From a virus, in the IMG/VR virus record IMGVR_UViG_3300025127_000104, positions 1 to 37,255 of that record: DNA of 37,255 bases; one strand, given 5' to 3'. Positions within the stretch are counted from its first letter, which is position 1, and each line of letters starts with the position of its first letter. Below the pieces are notes generated by a model. That model was not told where the DNA came from. It ran no database searches and saw only the letters and a list, made by a program, of their open reading frames with translations. Both the position numbers and the translations under genes were made by a program. Positions 15,048 through 32,968 of the stretch are shown here, piece after piece.

Positions 15048-18000
15048 ATGCCAGAGATAAAACAGGGTTTTTCGTCAGGTCGTATGAATAAAGATCTTGA
15101 TGAAAGATTAATACCTAACGGTGAATATAGAGATGCTATGAATATACAAGTGTCAACTTCAGATGACTCTGACGTTGGTGTTGTGCAAAACGTTTTAGGT
15201 AACGTAAAGCTTTCTAATATTCCAACAGATCCTTTTAGTGTTTTAAAATGTGTAGGTACTATTAGTGACGAAAAAACAAACTCTGTTTACTGGTTTACAA
15301 CAAATGAAAACGAATCTATAGAACTACTTGATGGTGAGTTTACTGTACCTGAAAACGCTTTACCAACGCCAGACAACTGGGGGACTAGAGCTCAAAATTT
15401 AAGTTCTGCTTTTCAGAATTTAAGAATAGACACTATAGCTGAATTTTCAGTTAATCAAACAAACCCAGTTGTTGTTGATGTTTACAACGTAGACATACAC
15501 GTTGACTATACTGATTTATTTGGTTTTTTTCCAGTTACACCTATAGACTCAATACAAACTTTTGATTTAAACTTTAATCAAGAAGAAGTTATTTACATAA
15601 AAGAAAATATGGAAATAATTGTTTTTTGTGATGATGGTTCTGGTGAGTTTATAAACTCTGTGTTAGGTTTAAATTTAAAAGTTCAAGAAATAATTGGTAA
15701 TAAAATTATTTTTAATAAACCAATAGCGCCTACACAACTAATACCACAAGGTACTACTTTAGTAGGTTTTAGATTTAAGTCTTCAAGAGCTTTAAACTTT
15801 ATTTCTAAAAATATAATTACTGCTATTTCTATTATTGATGATTTTTTATTTTGGACAGATAATTTTTCTGAACCAAAAAAAATTAATATAAATGACTGTA
15901 AAAGAGGTACGTTAGATTTTACTACACCTACGAAGCTAATAGTTGAAGATAGAGATATAAGTATAAACAGTAATATTTACTTAGAAGAAAAACACATAAC
16001 AGTAATAAAACCTTCACCTTTAAATCCTTTGTTTGTAAAAACAGAATCTGCCGCTCAAAAAAATACAAACTTTATTGCTCACAAAACTACGGGTACTAAT
16101 GGTGTAACAAACTCTACTAATTTTGTTTCATCAGGTACAACTTTGTTACAGCCAGGCCAAACACACTGGATGTCTATTATAAATCAACAAAACTCTTTGT
16201 TAGATATAAACAATGGTGATGTTTTACTTTTAAAATCTATTTCAACTAACATTGGCGCAAGTGTTTCTGCAGGTGTCTTTCCTGTTGTAGATGCTGAGAT
16301 TAGAGCTATTGTAAATAATTTTTCTTTTACAGTACCAAACGCAGCTGGTATTGGTCAACAAATAAATATAAACATAACTATACAAGCTATATCTCCAGAC
16401 ACGCCTGTTGGAACAAACCTTGTTTTTGCCGGCTCACTAGAAGAAAAAGAAAATAATTTATTTGAAGATAAATTTGTAAGGTTTAGTTATAGGTGGAAAT
16501 ATAAAGACGGTGAGTATTCTACTTTTGCACCTTTTACTACTGTAGCTTTTGATCCTGGTATATTTAATTTACATCCTACAGTTGGTTATAACTTAGCTAT
16601 GGAAAATACAGCTTATAATATAACACTTCAAGATTTTATTACTCCAGATTTACCAGATGATGTTATTGAGTTAGATCTTTTATATAAAGACTCTGTTTCT
16701 CCAAACATATATATTGTTGACAGTTTAAAATACAAAGACACTAACCCAAATAGTGGGCTTAACCCTTGGAGATCACAAGGTTCTACAGCTGATTTAGTAG
16801 ATGCTGGTATTTTAACTAACTCAATAAACTCAGATATACAAGGATCTTACTCTTTAAAATCAGAGTCTATATTTAAAATATTACCTTCAAATCAATTAAT
16901 AAGAACTTTTGATGATGTACCTAGAAAGGCTAAGTCTTTAGATATAACCGCTAATAGATTAATATATGGTAACTACGTTAAAGACTATAACCTTGTAAAA
17001 ACAGCTAATGAAAAATGGGATTTTTTAGTTGATCAATTTACAACTATAAAATACCTTGCGGAAACAAAATCTAATAGAATAGGTGCTCCATCTATAAAGT
17101 CATTAAGAGAATATCAAATAGGTATTGTTTATAGAGATACTTACGGAAGAGAAACTCCTGTGTTTACAAATTCTGAAGCTAGCCATAGAGTACCTAAAAC
17201 AAAATCTAGTCAAACTAGTAAATTAAGAATAAACCCAGGTAATCACCCTACAAACAAAGAAATAGAGTATTACAAGTTTTATATAAAAGAAAGTTCTAAC
17301 GAATATTACAACATGGTTGTTGATAGGGTTTACAACGCTGAAGATGGTAATGTTTGGTTAAGTTTTCCTTCAGCTGAAAGAAATAAAATAGACGAAGATA
17401 CTTATCTAATATTAAAAAAAGGTAGAGGTCAAAACAATGTTGTTGAAGATACTACTAAATATAAAGTTTTAGCTATATCTAACAACGCGCCTGATTTTGT
17501 AAAAACAAGAAAAGCTTTATTAGGTAAACTTCCATTATCACCACAGACTATACATTTCCCAGCTAATAATGAGTTAGATCAAACTTTTGACGGTGCAACT
17601 ACAGTTAGAACACCAGTTAACTTTTCTAACTCTAACGTTGACTTAGAAGCTGTTGATAGTTTTACTATTATCTTAGATAATGACGATGTTAGTACTGATG
17701 GTTTACGAGATAAATACGCAACGTTAAACTTTGGAGATTTATTTTCTAGTGAAATAACAAACGTAAACACAAGGTATAGAATAAGATTTGTAAATGAGTC
17801 TAAAAACTTAAAATCAAGATTTTACAACGTAGTATCAGTAATGCAAGTAACTGCTCGTGCAGAGTTAGAACAAACACCTCAAATAGCTTTTAACCACGAA
17901 AGTGATGAAGGTAGATTTAACTTTGTTCTAGAGCAACCTATAAGACCTGATACTGGTGGTGAAGCAAATTCGTTAGGTCATTTTATAATGAACACTACTG

Positions 18001-20648
18001 GTGCTGTAGATGGTAGTTCTACTTTAAACTCAAATTGTTTTATTGAGTTTTATGACTATAAAGTTAGAAATAAACCTGAGTTTGATGGTAGATTTTTTGT
18101 AAAAATATTTAAAGATGTTTTAATAACAGAGCAAGTTTTACCTACTCAAGCAAACAATAAAAGACAAGTTATAGCTTCAAGAAGCTTACATTATATAAAT
18201 GGCACTAATTTTGATTTAGGATCTTCTATAAGTAATAGTTCTGTAAACGGTACGATAAGTTCAAATACTACTGACTTTGATACTTTAGAGCATTGGAAAA
18301 GATTTGCAACTCAAAACGGTAGTGAGTTAGCTAAAGGAAGGTGGTTTGTTGATGAAGCTTATTATTACGCTAAAGCGGAGCCACCAACTACAAGTTCTAG
18401 CTCTACACTTGTGTGTAGCTCTGATACGCACGATGACTTAGATTTTGGTTTAGGTGGTGCTATAGGCGTAGCTTTTACTGCTGCTAGTACTTTAAGTAGT
18501 AATTTACCTGATTTTAGAAATAAAGGTGTTAGAGCTACTACTGATTACGCTTCAGATTTACCTGCGAATATAAGAGTAGGTACACCTATAGAAAACGCTC
18601 AAAGCAGTATTGATATAGCTTATAGTTATATATCTAACTCTGATTACGATCCGTTACCATCGCAAGATCTTGACATGTTATTTAGTTTTAAACCTGGTAA
18701 TTTTATACAGTTTAATTCAGACACTACTGTGTATAAAATAATTGCTGTTTCTTCAGCTAACTATGTAAACGCTAATTTAAATACAAGCACAGGTATCTCT
18801 TCAAACGCGCATAGCTCTTCTATAAATCTTGAACAACAAAGAAGAGTTGTTTTTAGACTTCATTTAGATAAAGATTTTACAACTGATCCTATTGCTAGCT
18901 CTGCAACTACACCAACACCAGACAATAATAGTCTTAACTTTAGAGTGTTTGCTTCTTTTTCTTCAGCATTAGATGATGAAAATGAAATACCAGATTTTCC
19001 AGCTATATTTGAAACAGAGCCAAAAGAAGATGTTGATTTAGATATATATTACGAAGCTAGTCAAAATTATCCTTTAAAATTTACAAAACAAAACGCTCAA
19101 CTTTATATACCTATTGGAACAGAAGTAAAAGCACATAACAGTTTAGGCATAACAAATGCTGGTTCTACTTTAGATCAAAATGGTACTAATGCAATGATAA
19201 TAGCTAATCATGTTGAAGGTTATATAACTATTACTAATGTAAATAATTCTAATTCACTACTATTATTTCATGGAGATCTTTTAGAATTAACACATCCATT
19301 ACATAAAACTAAATTAACAATAGCTATTGATCACCCAAGCGGTCCTGGTTCTTTTTATAGCGATACTGAAGAAGTAAGAATTAATCCTAGCGCTGGCGGT
19401 GATAAACAATTAAACTGGTTTAACTGTTTTTCTTTTAGTAACGGTGTAGAGTCTGATAGAATAAGAGATACTTTTAATCTTCCTAGACTAGATAAAGGTG
19501 TTAAAGTTTCTACTGTAACTGAAAAAGCTTATGGAGAACAAAGACTTGAAGGTGGTTTGATATTTTCCGGGATATATAACGGTAAAAATAGTATTAATAA
19601 TTTAAATCAATTTATATCAGCTGAAGGTATAACAAAAGATTTAGATCCTACTTATGGTAGTATACAAAAGCTTTTTGCAAGAAACAGTGATTTAGTTGCT
19701 CTTTGTGAAGATAAAATAGTTAAAATATATGCTGATAAAGATATACTTTTTAACGCTGACGGTAATACTCAGTTAACGGCAAGTAATAGGGTTTTAGGTC
19801 AAGCTCAACCTTTTATAGGTGATTATGGTATATCTCAAAATCCAGAAAGCTTTTCTAAAGAAAGCTATAGAGCTTATTTTACAGACAAACAAAGAGGTGC
19901 TGTACTTAGACTTTCCATGGACGGTTTAACAAACATATCTGATTATGGTATGAAAGACTGGTTTAAAGATAGGTTGAAAAATGCCAGAACTTTAATAGGC
20001 TCTTATGATGATAAAAAATCAGAATATAATTTAACTTTAGAAATTTTACCAACGTCAAAAGTAAAAGAGCAACACACGGTAACATATAAAGAATCAGTTA
20101 ATGGTTGGTCTAGCTTTAAATCTTTTATACAAGAGCTAGGCGGTAGTGTGTCAAACGACTATTATACTTTTAAACAAGGTCAAATATATAAACACCACAT
20201 TGAAGGTATTCACAATACTTTTTATTCAGATATTACAGACGCTGAATCAACTGAATCTAGTGTGACTTTTATATTTAATGAATCTCCTAGTTCTATTAAA
20301 AACTTTAAAACTTTAAACTACGAAGGAACTCAAAGTAAAGTTAGGCAAGATAATCAAATGTACACTGGTTATTATAACTTGCAAGATAAAGAAGGTTGGT
20401 TTGCTGAGTACGTGCAAACAGATCAAGATATTGGTGCTGTAAACGAGTTCAGAAAAAAAGAAAACAAATGGTTTAATTATATAAAAGGAAGAACTGGTTT
20501 AAATGAAGGTAGTAATATTAATGTTGGTGATGTTGTAGATATAGATACAGATAAATTTAATTTTCAAGGTTTAGGTAGCAGTAACGACTATACAGGTTTA
20601 GTTTCTGTACAAAAACTAATAATAAAAGACTCAAATGACACAGACTAA
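15048..20648 (+). CDS. Giant tail nozzle / stabilisation protein
   Basis: This encodes 1866 residues. The N-terminus (KQGFSSGRMNKDLDERL, then IPNGEYRDAMNIQVSTSDD) and the C-terminal segment (DLVALCEDKIVKIYADKD, then QPFIGDYGISQNPESF, YRAYFTDKQRGAVLRLSMDG) are patterns I recall as conserved in marine phage stabilisation proteins. They fit the T7 gp12 / P22 gp10 role of a beta-propeller nozzle that plugs the adaptor ring and stabilises packaged DNA. The central region is almost all beta-strand and is far longer than in T7 or P22 (about 470 to 800 residues), so extra beta-domains, perhaps fibre-docking, have been inserted. There are no signal or membrane segments. Its 3' end overlaps the next gene by 14 bases. 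Confidence 0.75.
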   Translation: MPEIKQGFSSGRMNKDLDERLIPNGEYRDAMNIQVSTSDDSDVGVVQNVLGNVKLSNIPTDPFSVLKCVGTISDEKTNSVYWFTTNENESIELLDGEFTVPENALPTPDNWGTRAQNLSSAFQNLRIDTIAEFSVNQTNPVVVDVYNVDIHVDYTDLFGFFPVTPIDSIQTFDLNFNQEEVIYIKENMEIIVFCDDGSGEFINSVLGLNLKVQEIIGNKIIFNKPIAPTQLIPQGTTLVGFRFKSSRALNFISKNIITAISIIDDFLFWTDNFSEPKKININDCKRGTLDFTTPTKLIVEDRDISINSNIYLEEKHITVIKPSPLNPLFVKTESAAQKNTNFIAHKTTGTNGVTNSTNFVSSGTTLLQPGQTHWMSIINQQNSLLDINNGDVLLLKSISTNIGASVSAGVFPVVDAEIRAIVNNFSFTVPNAAGIGQQININITIQAISPDTPVGTNLVFAGSLEEKENNLFEDKFVRFSYRWKYKDGEYSTFAPFTTVAFDPGIFNLHPTVGYNLAMENTAYNITLQDFITPDLPDDVIELDLLYKDSVSPNIYIVDSLKYKDTNPNSGLNPWRSQGSTADLVDAGILTNSINSDIQGSYSLKSESIFKILPSNQLIRTFDDVPRKAKSLDITANRLIYGNYVKDYNLVKTANEKWDFLVDQFTTIKYLAETKSNRIGAPSIKSLREYQIGIVYRDTYGRETPVFTNSEASHRVPKTKSSQTSKLRINPGNHPTNKEIEYYKFYIKESSNEYYNMVVDRVYNAEDGNVWLSFPSAERNKIDEDTYLILKKGRGQNNVVEDTTKYKVLAISNNAPDFVKTRKALLGKLPLSPQTIHFPANNELDQTFDGATTVRTPVNFSNSNVDLEAVDSFTIILDNDDVSTDGLRDKYATLNFGDLFSSEITNVNTRYRIRFVNESKNLKSRFYNVVSVMQVTARAELEQTPQIAFNHESDEGRFNFVLEQPIRPDTGGEANSLGHFIMNTTGAVDGSSTLNSNCFIEFYDYKVRNKPEFDGRFFVKIFKDVLITEQVLPTQANNKRQVIASRSLHYINGTNFDLGSSISNSSVNGTISSNTTDFDTLEHWKRFATQNGSELAKGRWFVDEAYYYAKAEPPTTSSSSTLVCSSDTHDDLDFGLGGAIGVAFTAASTLSSNLPDFRNKGVRATTDYASDLPANIRVGTPIENAQSSIDIAYSYISNSDYDPLPSQDLDMLFSFKPGNFIQFNSDTTVYKIIAVSSANYVNANLNTSTGISSNAHSSSINLEQQRRVVFRLHLDKDFTTDPIASSATTPTPDNNSLNFRVFASFSSALDDENEIPDFPAIFETEPKEDVDLDIYYEASQNYPLKFTKQNAQLYIPIGTEVKAHNSLGITNAGSTLDQNGTNAMIIANHVEGYITITNVNNSNSLLLFHGDLLELTHPLHKTKLTIAIDHPSGPGSFYSDTEEVRINPSAGGDKQLNWFNCFSFSNGVESDRIRDTFNLPRLDKGVKVSTVTEKAYGEQRLEGGLIFSGIYNGKNSINNLNQFISAEGITKDLDPTYGSIQKLFARNSDLVALCEDKIVKIYADKDILFNADGNTQLTASNRVLGQAQPFIGDYGISQNPESFSKESYRAYFTDKQRGAVLRLSMDGLTNISDYGMKDWFKDRLKNARTLIGSYDDKKSEYNLTLEILPTSKVKEQHTVTYKESVNGWSSFKSFIQELGGSVSNDYYTFKQGQIYKHHIEGIHNTFYSDITDAESTESSVTFIFNESPSSIKNFKTLNYEGTQSKVRQDNQMYTGYYNLQDKEGWFAEYVQTDQDIGAVNEFRKKENKWFNYIKGRTGLNEGSNINVGDVVDIDTDKFNFQGLGSSNDYTGLVSVQKLIIKDSNDTD

Positions 20649-25774: not shown

Positions 25775-28700
25775 ATGAGATATACTTATAACGGTACAGA
25801 AATATCTTACGATCAGATATTAGACGCCGCTCGTCAGAGTGGTGTTTCTATAGATGACTATATTGAAGCTACTGGTATACAAATAGACAACACAATAGAC
25901 GAAAACTCTTTTATCTCAAGTTTGCAAAAATATTTAGATCAGCCAAACGTAATGTTTGGTGAAAAGTTTCTTAAATCTACAGCCGTGCCTTTTGCTTTAG
26001 GTATTGCTAGAAATATATCTGGAGATACTCCTGAAGTAAAAGAAACTGATACTTTTGCTGATAATCCTTTTAAAGACTTTTTTAATGACATTTATAAAGA
26101 AAGCGCAAAAGGCTGGGAGCAAGGTAAAGAAATAGATGCTGCTAAAAGATTACAAGAAGCTTTATCTCAAGGTAAAGATCCTAGTGAAAAAGATATTTTT
26201 AAAGTAGCTAGTAATCATGCTAAAATATCTAAAATGAAGCCTATTGATGAGATTCAAGCTTATCAAAGTACTTACGATAAAAATAAAGAAAAATATAATG
26301 GCTTTACTGCTTTTTTTATGGCTATAGCAGAAAATCCTACTTTTATATTAAGCTCTTACTCTTCTTCTTTTATGATGCAAGCTAGCGCGTTCGCTAATAA
26401 TCCAGAGGCTAGAGAAGAGGCTATAGGTAAAGGTCTTTTTACTGCTGGTGGTGTTTTAGCTTTAGGTCAATTAGGCCCGCAAGCTTTTGCTCCTGAAGAA
26501 CTTATTACTGGACCTGTTGCTTTTATGTCAGGACTTTTTGGAAGTGTAAGTGGTAGTTTAGAACAAGCTACAACTTTTAACGAAATAATGCAAGAAGGCT
26601 TACAAAACGATGATAAAGAGTTTACTCCTGAAAACATAAAATCTTTTTTAAATGATAAAGAAGTTGTAACTTTTAAAAGCCCTAGAGGCTCTATGTTTGA
26701 TATAACTGGAACTAGAGCTGAAATAGCTAGAAAAAGAGCTTTAAAAAGAAGTATTGCTGTTGAAACAGTAGATACATTTACAGCTTTATTAGGTGGAACT
26801 GTTGTTAGGCAGGCTTCTAAAGTAGGTAAAACTAAAAAAGCTATAGGTACGATAGGTAGTGCTACCGCTATAGGTGGTGGTTTAGCTAGTGAAACTTTAG
26901 GTCAAATAGCTGGTGGTCAAGAGCTTGAAGTTGGTGAAATATTACTTGAGGGTATTACTGAAAAAGCTATAGCGATGACAGGTATAACTACAATACCTTC
27001 ATTGCTTAGTAAAAATCCTGTTTATAAGTTTAATGGTCAATCAATGACTGAAAAACAGTTGTTAAGAGAGTTAAACAAAATGTCTGATGTTGAGATTGCT
27101 GAAATACAAGATAAAATAGAGATAAAAAACGATAATTTTACTAAAAACAGAATACAACAACGAGCTACTAAAGGTACTTATGAAGCAAGAATAGCTGAAA
27201 AAGTAACTGATAAAGCGGACAGAAAACTTTTAGCTAAAAAACTTGCAGAGTTAGACAGAGAAAAAGCTAAAGACAGATCTAAAAAGAAAAAAGACGATGT
27301 ATTATCACCTTTTGTCGAAGCTCAAAACGATAACGTAACATTACTTGAAAACCAAATAAAAAATATATTAAACAAATATCAAGGGCCTACAGATACAAAA
27401 GCTTTTCAAGAAAGAAATAAAAAAATTAAAATTGCTCGTTTAAATTTTTTAAAAAATGAAATAACAGAAGGTGTTAAGAAAACGAAAGCTTACAAGAAGA
27501 TGGATATTGATACAGAAGAAGTTAGTGCTGATCAAGCTGTTGAAAAGTTTTTTGCTCAAGAAGAACAAAACTTACTTTATGATTTATCTTTATTAAACGA
27601 AAATTTAGAGCAAGCAACTGATAACAAAACAAAAAAAGAAATAAGAAAAAAGATTAAAGAAGTTGAAGCTGAATATAATAGTTTAGAACAAAACGCGCAA
27701 GAGGCAAGAGCTTCTCAAGGTTTTTTATTAGAAGACAATGCTACTGGTAAAATGACTATTGTTATTAATGAAGATGTAGCTTTGACTGATGGCATTAATA
27801 TAAATGTAGCTGCTCATGAATTATTACACGCCGTGCTTCGTAATACGTTTTTAACTGAAAAAGGTTTTAGAGCAAGAGAAGCTAAAGGCGCTGGTATTCA
27901 AACAGGTCAAAGTCTTTTAAATTATTTACTTGAAAACAAAGAAGGTGAGTTATTAATTGATGGTGGTATTTTAAATAGATTAAAATCTTATGATAACGCG
28001 AGTAGTGATGTTCAAGGTCAAGAAGTTTTAAATTTATTGTCTGATGCTTTTGTTAATACACAATACCAAAGTAAAGCTGAAAGTTTTTTAACTGGTATTG
28101 GTGAGCGTATATCTGATATATTAAAAGCTTATTTACCAGAAAAATATGCTAATCAATTAAACTTTGCTAATGGTAAACAAGTTTTTGATTTTGTTAAAAC
28201 TTTTAACAAAGCCATTAGAGGTGATAAAGTTGCAAATAGAATTATTGAAAGAGTTAGTAGAAGAGGTATAGATGTTAGTGAAAATATAACTAAAGAAGAA
28301 ACTGGTAAAGCTTCAAAAGCTCCTATGTCAAAAGCTGCTTCTGATAGAGTGCAAAGTATATACGAAACTAAAGGTGTTGATGGTGCTTTTGAAATAATAG
28401 AACAGTTTAAACCTATAACTACAAGGTTAGCTAGAAAATATAGAAATGTACCTGGTTACGATCAAGACTTGTTAGTTGATGAAATAGAAACTGGTAGAAG
28501 AGGTATATATGATTTAATAACTGAATATAATCCTAACTCAAACGTACCTTTAGCTGCTTATATAAATAAATTTTTACCAGCAAGAGCTATAGAAGCTGCA
28601 GATCGTATATTGGAAACAGAGTTTACTCAAGATGTTTCTGAAAGAACTGATATAGCTGCTGAAGAAACTACTGTTGAAACAGCTGACACTCCAAAACCTA

Positions 28701-31700
28701 GACAAATAAAACTTGCTGATAGACTTAATATATCTGAAAAAGTTGAAGAGCAAATAAATGCGGCTGTAGCTACATTAAACTTAGACAATGTAAACTTTAA
28801 AAACTTAAAGGATTTAATGCCAGAAATAACTAGCGAACTTTTTGGCATACCTGTTAAAAAATTAATTAGTGGCGCTAACTTAACTAAAGGTGAACTACAG
28901 TCTGCACAGATGTTTATTAATAAAAACGCAGACTTATTAATTAAAGTTTTACCAGAAGGTGGTACTGCTAGTGGTACAGCTACTGGTGTACCTAGAACTT
29001 TATTAAATGAATTTTACACAAAAGGTGGAAGAGTAAAAGCTGCTAAAACCGGTAGTAGAGCTGGTTTAGCTGTTCAAGAAAAAAAGTCTATAAATAAAAA
29101 ACAATTTTTAGAAGTATTTGGTATTGTTGATGGTAGACCACAGCGTGATGATAGAAATACATCAGCTAGAGTTTTAGCTATGGCTAATGTTACGGGTAAA
29201 ATGATAACTAATCAAGCTGTAAGAGAAAAACTAGCTCAAATAGAAGGTACTGAACAAATATCTCAAAGATTATCAGATGGTAAATCTTCTGTAATGTTTT
29301 CTAAAGGTTTTGTAGAAAACCTTGTAGATAAACCTCTTAACCCTAAAAGTGGTAATGATAGAAATAAAATGAAAATTTTTCTTGAAAAAACTTTTCCTAA
29401 GTTTTTACTACCAGTATATAGATCAGATAGTTTTGGCCCAAGAACAAGTCTTGAAAATAATCAAGAGTTAGGGTTTTTTATTTCTGCAGCTGAAAGGAGG
29501 TCTTTACAAAATAAAGCTAAAAAAGTAAAAAATAATTTAAATACAAAGCAAGTAAATCTTATAAATTCTTTTATAACTGACAAAAGAAATAATTTTAACC
29601 AGTTAAACGATGAAAAGTTTAGCAAAACTTTTGAGGATCATTGGCAAGGTGCTGAAATTTACGTTCAAAAATTAGCTGATATGTTTCATGCTGGTAGCAG
29701 TCAAGAGGTTATAGCTATTTTATCAACATCTGCTAGAACTAGTAGTCATTTTATAAGAATTATGGGTTTACCCATTGGTATTGCAGATGATGTTATTATT
29801 ACAAGAAATGCTAGCGGAACACAAGTTTTAGTAAATAAAAACAAAAAGCTAAAAGGTAAGCCACAAAAAGAACATGTTTTTCAAACTAGTCTAGCTACAA
29901 ATTTTATCGCACAAGCTATTTCATTAGATAAAATACATCCAGGCGCTGTTAAAAGAGCTATGGCGTATTTAAAGAAAAACTATTATGTAGTAGGTATAAA
30001 CAGTGAAGATAACGCAAAAGTTGATGCAGAATATAGTGAAACACAACCTAAAGAGTTTAATGATTTATACGGTAAAAACTCTGTAAAATATTTAAAAGGT
30101 GAGGTTAACATAAGTGAAATGCCTGACCCTGTTTTAAGATTAGTACATCCAAATGTAAATGTAGACATATCTAAATATAAACTATATGATGGTACAACTT
30201 TACGTAATAAATATTTTGGGGCTGATAACGCTACTATATTTAAGTATTTAAGCAAAACAGATCCTACTATTAATGAAAAGTATTTAAAAGAAAAAGGTAA
30301 AATACCTATGAGTAAAGGTATTATACCTATAACTAAAGCTGGAGAATTACAAACTAAAGCTAGATCTGTACAGTTTAGTAAAAAAGCTAGAGGTATGAGT
30401 ACTTTTGACTTTGATGAAACACTTATAATTGACGGTAAGAATTTTGTTATAGCTACTATTGGTGATGAAACTGTAAAAGTAAGTAGCGCACAGTGGCCAG
30501 TTAAAGGACCAGAACTAATGCAACAAGGTTATAAGTTTAATTTTGATGACTTTGTAAACGTACGTGGTGGTGTTGAAGGCCCGTTGCTACAAAAGATGCG
30601 TAATCAAATAAACAAATTTGGCGTAGAAAATGTTTTTGTTTTAACGGCAAGGCCACAGGCAGCTAGCACAGCAATACAAGGTTGGTTAAAATCAAAAGGT
30701 ATAAACATACCGTTAAAGAATATAACTGGCTTAGGTAACTCTACTGCAGAAGCAAAAGCTATGTGGATGATAGATAAGTTTTCGCAAGGTTATAACGATA
30801 TGTATTTTGTTGATGATGCTTTATCAAATGTTAAAGAAGTTAAAGCTGCTTTAGAACAATTAGATATAAAATCAAAAGTAGTTCAAGCTAAAGTACAATT
30901 TAGTAAACAAGGTAGTCAAGAGTTTAATAAGATACTAGAAGAAGTAAAGGGTGTAAAAAGAGAAAAAACATTTAGTAGAGTTGTAGCTGAAAAATTTGGA
31001 GCTGGTAAAGGTAGATATAGATTTTTTGTACCACCATCACATGAAGATTTTATAGGTTTGCTTTATAATTTTATAGGTAAAGGTGAAGCTGGTAATAGAC
31101 ATAGAAAGTTTTTTGAAGATAATTTAATTAAACCACTTAACAAGGCTTTTGTTAATTTAAATAAAGCTAGACAAGCTATATCTAATGATTATGCTAGTTT
31201 ATTAAAACAATCGCCAGGTTTACGTAAAAAATTAAGTAGTAAAATACCTGGTACAGAATTTTTTTACTCTGATGCTGTAAGGGTTTATTTGTGGGATAAA
31301 GCTGGTTTTGATATACCTGGTTTATCTAGTCAAGATATAAAAGAACTAGTTAAAACAATAACCTCTAATGAAAAGCTACATGTTATTGCTGATATTGTTG
31401 GTGTAATATCTAGACAGGCCGACGGTTATGTTCAGCCAAACGAAAACTGGATAGTTGGAGATATAAGAACAGACTTACAAGATGCCACTGGTAGAGTTGG
31501 TAGAGCTAAGTTTTTTAATGAGTTTTTTGAAAATGCAGATGTAATATTTAGCGAAGAAAACCTAAATAAAATAGAAGCTATATACGGTAATAACGTAAGA
31601 GAAGCTATACGTCACATGTTAGACTCTATTAAAACAGGTAAAACTAGAAACCCTGGTGATAAAAGAACAAATCAATTTTTAGATTATATAAATGGATCTG

Positions 31701-32968
31701 TTGGCGCAACAATGTTTTTTAATATAAGATCTATGTTGTTACAGCAATTATCTAATATTAATTTTATAAATTGGGGTGACAATAACATTTTTAAAGCTTC
31801 AGCTGCTTTTGCAAATCAAAAACAATACTGGAACGATTTTGCGTTTTTATTTAATTCAGACTTTTTAAAACAAAGAAGATCAGGTATAGCTTTTGATGTT
31901 AATGGTAATGAGTTAGCAAAAGAAATATCAAAGTCAAAAGAACCATTTAGAGCTACTGTAAGATTTTTACTACAAAAAGGCTTTGCACCAACACAATTTG
32001 GTGATAGTTTAGCTATAGCTATGGGTGGTGCTACTATGTATAGAAATAGAGTTAAAACTTATATAAAACAAGGTTTAAGTAAAACTGAAGCTCAAAACAA
32101 AGCTTTTCAAGATTTTGTTGAAGTAGCTGAGTCTACACAACAATCCGCGCGTATGGATATGATAGGTATGCAGCAGAAATTACCTATCGGTAAAATATTA
32201 CTTGCTTTTCAAAACTACGGCTCACAAGTTGTTAGAATAAAGAAAAAAGCTGTATTAGATTTAATTAATAGAAGAATAACGCCACCATATAAATCACAAA
32301 AAGCTAGCGATATGGCTAATGTTTCTAAAATAATACATTACGCTGTAGTTCAAAACGTTTTGTTTCACGGTTTACAAACAGCTTTATTTGCTTTAGCTTT
32401 TAGCGATGATGAAGAAGATAAAGAATTAATAAAAACTAAAAAAGGTAGATTTTATAACGGTATGGTAGATACTATACTAAGAGGCACAGGTATAGCTGGT
32501 GGTGTCGTTAGTGTTCTTAAAAACACAGCCATTAAATGGGTTGAAGAACAAGAAAAACCAAAATGGAAAAGAGATAAGTTAATTACGTTTAGAGAACTTT
32601 TAAAAATATCACCACCACTTAGTATAAAAGAACGAAAAGTAGCGCAAGCAGATAATACTAGATTGTGGGATGAAGATGTTATGAAAGAAATGCCATTAAC
32701 AGATCTTGATAATCCTATATGGCCTATGATATTTAAATATGTTGAAGGTATTACAAACTTACCAATAGACAACGCTTATCAAAATTATCAAAATTTAAAA
32801 GCAGCTTCTGACACAGAAATAACTTGGTGGAAAAGATTAGCTTTATTAGCTGGTTGGAGCCGGTGGGATGTTAATGTTAAAAACGAAGAGCTTGACGCTG
32901 TAAAAGATGAAATAAAAAAAAGAAAAGCAAAACAAAAGAAAAAAATAAAAAGCATTAGATACTATTAA
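25775..32968 (+). CDS. Giant modular ejection protein: peptidase, sigma-like, HAD
   Basis: This encodes 2397 residues, the largest gene here and the likely third ejection protein. About 170-450: Gly/Ala-rich hydrophobic helices that could insert in membranes. About 450-660: charged coiled coil. HELLH at 681-685 is an HExxH metallopeptidase signature. About 872-952 resembles sigma-70 region 2 (FKPITTRLARKYR, QDLLVDEI, YNPNSNVPLAAYINKFL). About 1540-1705 is a HAD phosphatase: FDFDETL (D1545, D1547), VLTARP (T1624) and FVDDAL (D1680, D1681). Short [FM]SK motifs lie at 851, 1174, 1512, 1534 and 1709, several at module edges. The C-terminal 690 residues are helical with a hydrophobic patch near 2195. 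It resembles the multi-domain 'polyvalent' proteins of phages, thought to enter the cell with the DNA. No RNA polymerase motif was found. Activities are inferred from motifs. Confidence 0.75.
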   Translation: MRYTYNGTEISYDQILDAARQSGVSIDDYIEATGIQIDNTIDENSFISSLQKYLDQPNVMFGEKFLKSTAVPFALGIARNISGDTPEVKETDTFADNPFKDFFNDIYKESAKGWEQGKEIDAAKRLQEALSQGKDPSEKDIFKVASNHAKISKMKPIDEIQAYQSTYDKNKEKYNGFTAFFMAIAENPTFILSSYSSSFMMQASAFANNPEAREEAIGKGLFTAGGVLALGQLGPQAFAPEELITGPVAFMSGLFGSVSGSLEQATTFNEIMQEGLQNDDKEFTPENIKSFLNDKEVVTFKSPRGSMFDITGTRAEIARKRALKRSIAVETVDTFTALLGGTVVRQASKVGKTKKAIGTIGSATAIGGGLASETLGQIAGGQELEVGEILLEGITEKAIAMTGITTIPSLLSKNPVYKFNGQSMTEKQLLRELNKMSDVEIAEIQDKIEIKNDNFTKNRIQQRATKGTYEARIAEKVTDKADRKLLAKKLAELDREKAKDRSKKKKDDVLSPFVEAQNDNVTLLENQIKNILNKYQGPTDTKAFQERNKKIKIARLNFLKNEITEGVKKTKAYKKMDIDTEEVSADQAVEKFFAQEEQNLLYDLSLLNENLEQATDNKTKKEIRKKIKEVEAEYNSLEQNAQEARASQGFLLEDNATGKMTIVINEDVALTDGININVAAHELLHAVLRNTFLTEKGFRAREAKGAGIQTGQSLLNYLLENKEGELLIDGGILNRLKSYDNASSDVQGQEVLNLLSDAFVNTQYQSKAESFLTGIGERISDILKAYLPEKYANQLNFANGKQVFDFVKTFNKAIRGDKVANRIIERVSRRGIDVSENITKEETGKASKAPMSKAASDRVQSIYETKGVDGAFEIIEQFKPITTRLARKYRNVPGYDQDLLVDEIETGRRGIYDLITEYNPNSNVPLAAYINKFLPARAIEAADRILETEFTQDVSERTDIAAEETTVETADTPKPRQIKLADRLNISEKVEEQINAAVATLNLDNVNFKNLKDLMPEITSELFGIPVKKLISGANLTKGELQSAQMFINKNADLLIKVLPEGGTASGTATGVPRTLLNEFYTKGGRVKAAKTGSRAGLAVQEKKSINKKQFLEVFGIVDGRPQRDDRNTSARVLAMANVTGKMITNQAVREKLAQIEGTEQISQRLSDGKSSVMFSKGFVENLVDKPLNPKSGNDRNKMKIFLEKTFPKFLLPVYRSDSFGPRTSLENNQELGFFISAAERRSLQNKAKKVKNNLNTKQVNLINSFITDKRNNFNQLNDEKFSKTFEDHWQGAEIYVQKLADMFHAGSSQEVIAILSTSARTSSHFIRIMGLPIGIADDVIITRNASGTQVLVNKNKKLKGKPQKEHVFQTSLATNFIAQAISLDKIHPGAVKRAMAYLKKNYYVVGINSEDNAKVDAEYSETQPKEFNDLYGKNSVKYLKGEVNISEMPDPVLRLVHPNVNVDISKYKLYDGTTLRNKYFGADNATIFKYLSKTDPTINEKYLKEKGKIPMSKGIIPITKAGELQTKARSVQFSKKARGMSTFDFDETLIIDGKNFVIATIGDETVKVSSAQWPVKGPELMQQGYKFNFDDFVNVRGGVEGPLLQKMRNQINKFGVENVFVLTARPQAASTAIQGWLKSKGINIPLKNITGLGNSTAEAKAMWMIDKFSQGYNDMYFVDDALSNVKEVKAALEQLDIKSKVVQAKVQFSKQGSQEFNKILEEVKGVKREKTFSRVVAEKFGAGKGRYRFFVPPSHEDFIGLLYNFIGKGEAGNRHRKFFEDNLIKPLNKAFVNLNKARQAISNDYASLLKQSPGLRKKLSSKIPGTEFFYSDAVRVYLWDKAGFDIPGLSSQDIKELVKTITSNEKLHVIADIVGVISRQADGYVQPNENWIVGDIRTDLQDATGRVGRAKFFNEFFENADVIFSEENLNKIEAIYGNNVREAIRHMLDSIKTGKTRNPGDKRTNQFLDYINGSVGATMFFNIRSMLLQQLSNINFINWGDNNIFKASAAFANQKQYWNDFAFLFNSDFLKQRRSGIAFDVNGNELAKEISKSKEPFRATVRFLLQKGFAPTQFGDSLAIAMGGATMYRNRVKTYIKQGLSKTEAQNKAFQDFVEVAESTQQSARMDMIGMQQKLPIGKILLAFQNYGSQVVRIKKKAVLDLINRRITPPYKSQKASDMANVSKIIHYAVVQNVLFHGLQTALFALAFSDDEEDKELIKTKKGRFYNGMVDTILRGTGIAGGVVSVLKNTAIKWVEEQEKPKWKRDKLITFRELLKISPPLSIKERKVAQADNTRLWDEDVMKEMPLTDLDNPIWPMIFKYVEGITNLPIDNAYQNYQNLKAASDTEITWWKRLALLAGWSRWDVNVKNEELDAVKDEIKKRKAKQKKKIKSIRYY

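Follow-up and report, generated by a model that had tools for sequence, protein, structure and literature searches.

The giant gene and its relatives

The window analysed here (the whole 37,255-base stretch of virus record IMGVR_UViG_3300025127_000104, with 32% G+C) carries, in this order, a GroES-like gene, genes for terminase, portal and major capsid protein, several virion genes, a large muzzle-like gene, more genes, and a gene encoding a protein of 2397 aa. The latter gene (25775..32968, plus strand, as are all the features of its product given below) is uninterrupted over its full length and, as seen from synteny, is the last large gene of the structural operon. Same-order genes covering most of the operon were detected by BLASTP in Maribacter phage Panino, Manatee Spring phage ctfjg026, Flavobacterium phage elemo and Cellulophaga phages phi38:1 and phi19:3; Tenacibaculum phage Gundel_1 gave further BLASTP matches to genes of the window. 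With portal identity to named records reaching 54% at best, the phage is related to Flavobacteria-infecting podoviruses and stands far from every named record. We characterized the source as a marine podovirus-like phage, kin of the Pachyviridae, Pervagoviridae and Elemovirus phages of Flavobacteria. The muzzle-like protein (1866 aa, 15048-20648) has the crAss muzzle C-terminal Pfam domain, and this crAss-type C-terminus is found in a phage with a portal closest to Flavobacteria podoviruses. A scan for sigma-70 promoters gave no excess over shuffles.

Scans of the whole 2397-aa protein against Pfam and PHROGs returned no family; tblastn of the full protein in 50,697 phage records gave no match, and neither did tblastn of the sigma-like segment in phage records. 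A profile search with the whole alignment against PDB produced no meaningful match; we dropped weak Pfam matches, e.g. FTR_C, which at E 0.056 fell below the cut-off. On the other hand, 26 viral contigs were matched by tblastn with the full protein, and many more relatives came to light when the sigma plus partner region and the C-terminal module (at least 535 confirmed for the latter) served as queries; the sigma plus partner region found no relative in genome contigs.

Five profiles were used to type the 125 relatives left after removal of duplicates. Complete relatives are 2032-3420 aa long, and the orders most often seen in them are zincin-sigma-partner-HAD-C-terminus (31 proteins), zincin-HAD-C-terminus (31) and zincin-partner-HAD-C-terminus (19). 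HAD and C-terminus form a near-constant pair among the 125 typed relatives; the pair is not universal, however, as a later search with the sigma module gave some members with no HAD match. An earlier note on this DNA had placed zincin, sigma-region-2 and HAD modules in one polypeptide, and this was borne out, all three being conserved in relatives. The order in which it listed them stands as well; the list had omitted a partner domain (residues 969-1174), the region 1180-1530 and the C-terminal part, where the last 683 residues make a separate conserved helical module. Both the conserved partner domain and the fast-changing region 1180-1530 (29312..30364), a variable module with two to three sequence relatives found, lie between the sigma-like segment and HAD. 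Other variable segments of relatives hold zeta toxin (two cases), phage lysozyme (one) and LPD14 (one); Pfam gave no match to an LPD-type domain in the 2397-aa protein.

The N-terminal region (residues 1-635, 25775..27679) is poorly conserved, with about 10-30% identity in most relatives, and no conserved packaging signal was seen when looked for there. The extreme N-termini of relatives (e.g. L158, L163, L147) consist of tandem units of 25-30 residues that differ by lineage; by eye, the N-termini of L139 and L156 appear to carry a lytic transglycosylase domain.

Zincin and HAD modules and a motif between modules

An HExxH signature, expected to arise by chance in a protein of the same composition 0.007 times, is present as HELLH just where the earlier note had put it, at residues 681-685 (27815..27829). 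By motif and conservation it would provide zinc ligands and the general base of a zincin-like metallopeptidase module (residues 636-827, 27680..28255). H681 and H685 are invariant in 107 of 107 relatives, and so is E750 (28022..28024), a candidate third zinc ligand situated in the model on a helix downstream of HELLH; residue 682 is E in 103 relatives and D in four. The ligands are invariant even though the domain overall is about 20% identical among relatives. The first five PDB matches of the zincin profile include two Spartan SprT domains and two small neutral zinc proteases of snapalysin type (E 0.1-0.6); these matches are weak but appear right in kind. In the AlphaFold2 model the zincin part shows a helix-strand-strand-helix arrangement, while the fold list of the joint 636-1180 model was filled by the sigma domain. 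A homologous zincin (E 2.2e-12) is present in the giant protein of phage elemo, at the same place of the genome.

The HAD-like phosphatase module (residues 1536-1704, 30380..30886) is DUF2608-like (PF11019, 4.8e-5): PF11019 is matched by each of the 19 first-set members, the 2397-aa protein itself scoring 23.4 bits against a cut-off of 22.6. The AlphaFold2 model of residues 1528-2397 has pLDDT 82 and pTM 0.73, and at 1536-1701 the rows returned by VIA-align were mostly HAD phosphatases (Z up to 9.4), phosphoserine phosphatase, EYA2 and Legionella Lem4 among them; a HAD profile search against PDB gave no meaningful match. The motif residues D1545/D1547, T1624 and D1680/D1681, named previously from the sequence, were confirmed at these positions and found conserved in relatives together with K1661. 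They correspond to motif I (DFDET, residues 1545-1549, 30407..30421), motif II (T1624, 30644..30646), motif III (K1661, 30755..30757) and motif IV (D1680 and D1681, 30812..30817), all recognized by conservation. Among 119 HAD segments T1624 is retained in 117, K1661 in 115, the DD pair in 115 and the two aspartates of motif I in about 110; five of the ten motif I exceptions keep the motif elsewhere in the HAD domain because of an insertion. In L006, L065, L100, L135 and L141 we saw insertions in the HAD fold, between motif I and the remainder or close to the end of the fold, resembling an inserted cap or effector module.

Since a few relatives have no HAD motif I, this module may have a role besides catalysis. 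One could go further and suppose that the module is mainly structural, with catalysis not needed: in complete relatives it almost always adjoins the C-terminal module, about five relatives have no motif I, and some relatives found with the sigma module have no HAD match. Retention of motifs II, III and IV in 115-117 of 119 segments, and of motif I in most, speaks against this explanation, which we consider quite unlikely.

Several of the borders between modules carry the tripeptide FSK, picked up by motif enrichment: at residue 1175, after the partner domain (29297..29305), at residue 1534, before HAD (30374..30382), and at residue 1709, after HAD (30899..30907); in the 2397-aa protein FS(K/R) also occurs at 1282 and 1733. 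The 125 proteins contain 348 FS(K/R) against 118 expected in shuffles, a count that overstates independence, as orthologous positions were counted repeatedly. Outside the profiled modules the density of FS(K/R) is 1.5 per 1000 residues versus 0.4 inside, with FSK being the most over-represented tripeptide outside; in other ORFs of the same loci the motif was found 162 times versus 104. As judged from sequence statistics, FS(K/R) is a marker of module boundaries; that it may also be a cleavage site is our guess.

The C-terminal module and the probable link to virions

The all-helical C-terminal module (residues 1715-2397, 30917..32965) was delineated with AlphaFold2, a BFVD fold search and comparison with Gundel_1 gp74. 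A search of predicted viral structures (BFVD) with the 1528-2397 model gave 59 matches with E no higher than 0.001. Close relatives, with 28-51% identity, make up the first four; for further matches listed identity is 10-15%, and many of these bear annotations as large polyvalent, PolyVal ADP-ribosyltransferase or MuF C-terminal proteins. The fold search against PDB gave no convincing match to this module.

It is this relation to proteins annotated, in many cases, as large polyvalent, at 10-15% identity, that places the 2397-aa protein among polyvalent-type phage proteins, of which it is a new one; the chain joins several unrelated effector domains, modules are swapped in relatives, and the gene is encoded together with virion genes. 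The filing under polyvalent proteins proposed earlier is thus supported, relatives with LPD14, zeta toxin and lysozyme included. The large polyvalent proteins described in PMC5512222 are alike in combining unrelated effector domains with a zincin, the typical hub domain of such proteins, in the C-terminal fold, in the virion-gene setting and in the swapped zeta toxin, lysozyme and LPD14 modules. The sigma-region-2 and HAD phosphatase modules set the 2397-aa protein apart from those covered in the main text of that 2017 survey (Iyer et al., PMC5512222), a text in which the words sigma and phosphatase are absent.

Named phages provide several points of comparison. Gp74 of the Tenacibaculum phage Gundel_1 (2482 aa, annotated as structural, product of a late structural gene, with one HExxH) has a homologous C-terminus (profile 1.4e-11, BLASTP 6.5e-5), whereas zincin, sigma, partner and HAD profiles had no significant match in it. 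The giant structural protein of Flavobacterium phage elemo (3694 aa) occupies the same position and has the homologous zincin, while sigma, HAD and C-terminal profiles gave no significant match. In Cellulophaga phage phi18:3 the last giant gene of the syntenic structural operon encodes gp123, a protein detected in virions by MS/MS; its close homologue, phi19:3 gp129, has no HExxH, no DxDxT and no significant profile match. The window also shares the crAss-type muzzle C-terminus with the group of phi-crAss001, a related phage group whose giant virion cargo is the RNA-polymerase cargo gp47, gp49 and gp50 (PMC10172136); the DxDGD catalytic motif of the crAss-type virion RNA polymerase is absent from the 2397-aa protein.

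Given that the gene is the last in the structural operon, at the position of the MS/MS-detected phi18:3 gp123, and that the C-terminus is homologous to that of Gundel_1 gp74, the 2397-aa protein is probably present in virions. Its role might end with assembly: a zincin with conserved ligands, together with the boundary motifs, would suit a scaffold protein that cuts itself in the course of head maturation with no delivery into the cell, and there is a precedent in DdrB of phage P1, processed before packaging (PMC5512222). Still, the protein at the same position in phi18:3 is present in mature virions, and the zeta toxin and lysozyme modules of relatives make most sense if delivered; an assembly role of this kind seems to us improbable.

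The sigma-region-2-like module and its possible role

Residues 849-949 (28319..28621) have a predicted sigma-70 region-2-like fold. The AlphaFold2 model of 636-1180 has mean pLDDT 82 and pTM 0.46, the sigma part being mostly above pLDDT 90. When this model was compared by Foldseek with 350,542 PDB chains, almost all of the top 50 were sigma factors, at modest E of 0.05-0.8; the SigE N-terminal domain gave TM 0.67 over its own length. All 50 VIA-align rows were sigma factors (Z up to 9.3), nearly all aligned within 849-949. In hhalign comparisons with five E. coli sigmas region 2 came out in register, with E 0.015 for the sigma plus partner alignment and 0.00028 for the sigma module alone, both values being pairwise and not corrected for database size. 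Profiles A2 and A10 weakly listed sigma factors in PDB (E 0.48 and 0.85). Sigma and HAD folds were thus both retrieved from AlphaFold2 models at the segments proposed for them in the earlier note, with one adjustment: the predicted structure puts the sigma-like fold slightly earlier in the chain, at 849-949, than the suggested range of about 872-952. Pfam Sigma70_r2 had no match in 40 members, so that the assignment is one of fold and not of sequence family. An apparent similarity of the SLFGW subgroup to sigma region 3.2 (E 0.014) was dropped, as that group had no PDB or Pfam support.

The hhalign register shows the counterparts of sigma70 residues with roles in RNA polymerase contact and DNA melting. 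D403 corresponds to D or S at 902, Q406 to E905 and E407 to T or I at 906; Y425, F427 and W433 are replaced by V, L and K. The equivalent of Y430 is aromatic in 43 of 43 sequences (Y929 in the 2397-aa protein); equivalents of E407, Y425, F427 and W433 are not conserved.

The module was found in at least 238 viral loci, and the domain downstream of it is of several different kinds. Of these 238, 80 loci were kept for analysis of context: in 66 the ORF also matches the C-terminal or HAD profile, the module again being part of a giant protein of this type, and the remaining 14 ORFs end at contig or locus edges. The stretch after the sigma module is, by eye, of several kinds, although a single domain in strongly diverged forms may account for some of them. 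In the 2397-aa protein it is the partner domain (residues 969-1174, 28679..29296), replaced or strongly diverged in other relatives; the domain, with its AQMFINKNA and TGVPNTLL stretches, is very strongly conserved and was found in these giant proteins only. There were also 33 partner-domain proteins with no match to the sigma profile; they include three subgroups with related divergent modules in the sigma slot (9.5e-6, 1.6e-9 and 5.7e-19 in pairwise comparisons, versus 0.1-0.2 for reversed controls).

The fold may have been reused outside transcription, e.g. to bind packaged DNA or some other protein of the virion. Reuse comes easily to small helical folds, the slot is occupied by several divergent subfamilies, Pfam has no sigma match and the residues are divergent. 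However, the sigma module shows about 60% identity, versus 15-25% for its N-terminal neighbours, which suggests a conserved partner, and among 350,542 chains the fold match was specific to sigma factors; reuse of this sort is, in our opinion, rather unlikely.

Relatives have a sigma factor of their own. A separate gene with Sigma70 region 4 was present in each of the 12 long contigs of relatives that were searched (60-72 kb; those behind L006, L140, L157, L155, L165, L154, L141, L153, L057, L086, L068 and L132), making dependence on a bacterial-type RNA polymerase plausible. In nine of these contigs the separate sigma genes match the region 2 model as well, with E not above 0.1, and 12 proteins of 246-255 aa from 11 contigs match an E. 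coli sigma profile (1.8e-13 or lower). The separate sigma gene is usually followed by an ORF of about 160-190 aa. Within the 37-kb window, a genome fragment, the separate sigma gene was not found, and a search of the whole window at sequence level did not find the region 4 HTH (PF04545). A search of relatives for T7-type RNA polymerase had no match, and control genomes likewise gave none, so that the negative result is no sign of absence.

The 'transcription-directing' activity suggested for the protein earlier needs modification. With region 2 present and region 4 absent, no Pfam sigma match and a separate sigma gene in relatives, the module looks like a docking or handover piece and falls short of a full sigma factor; a role in polymerase docking or handover, or as a decoy, is a better fit than that of a sigma factor acting alone. 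As a decoy or anti-sigma, the region-2 module would compete with the host primary sigma for the beta-prime clamp helices and switch host transcription off, phage genes not being directed by it. Such action would agree with the presence of region 2 alone, with the loss of most melting aromatics from a retained fold and with the availability in relatives of a separate sigma factor for directing; yet a partner domain, conserved or replaced, always follows the sigma module, suggesting more than a plug, and we regard pure competition as rather unlikely.

The working model that we favour, with a probability of about one half, is that of an ejected cargo protein that docks on host RNA polymerase through its sigma-2 module. 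The conserved C-terminal helical module would serve to pack the 2397-aa protein in the virion, and the protein would enter the host cell together with the DNA. The zincin may cut the chain at linkers, possibly where FS(K/R) marks the module borders. The sigma-region-2 module would dock on the beta-prime clamp helices of the host RNA polymerase, and, once docked, would either perturb host sigma or keep the polymerase near the incoming genome until phage sigma is made; the HAD module would dephosphorylate a host or phage substrate. We counted against this model that Pfam Sigma70_r2 reaches none of the 40 members, that equivalents of sigma70 E407, Y425, F427 and W433 are not conserved, that region 4 is absent, that HAD motif I is missing from a few relatives, and that the giant protein of phi19:3, the close homologue of phi18:3 gp123, has no significant direct match to the 2397-aa protein. 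A bolder version, which we put forward tentatively and with some doubt, is that the module binds host polymerase straight after entry, with the variable partner domain conferring specificity, so that takeover precedes phage gene expression and is then continued by phage sigma.

Virion-borne takeover factors described in the literature searched are whole RNA polymerases (N4, crAss type) and enzymes that modify the host polymerase (T4 Alt); we found no description of a virion-delivered sigma module there. A delivered sigma-region-2 module, if true, would be a third takeover strategy, present in at least 238 viral loci. With FS(K/R) motifs near an embedded zincin, the cutting of polyvalent proteins into working pieces becomes testable. 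The combination of modules suggests that such phages could begin the takeover of transcription in the host ahead of any expression of their own genes.
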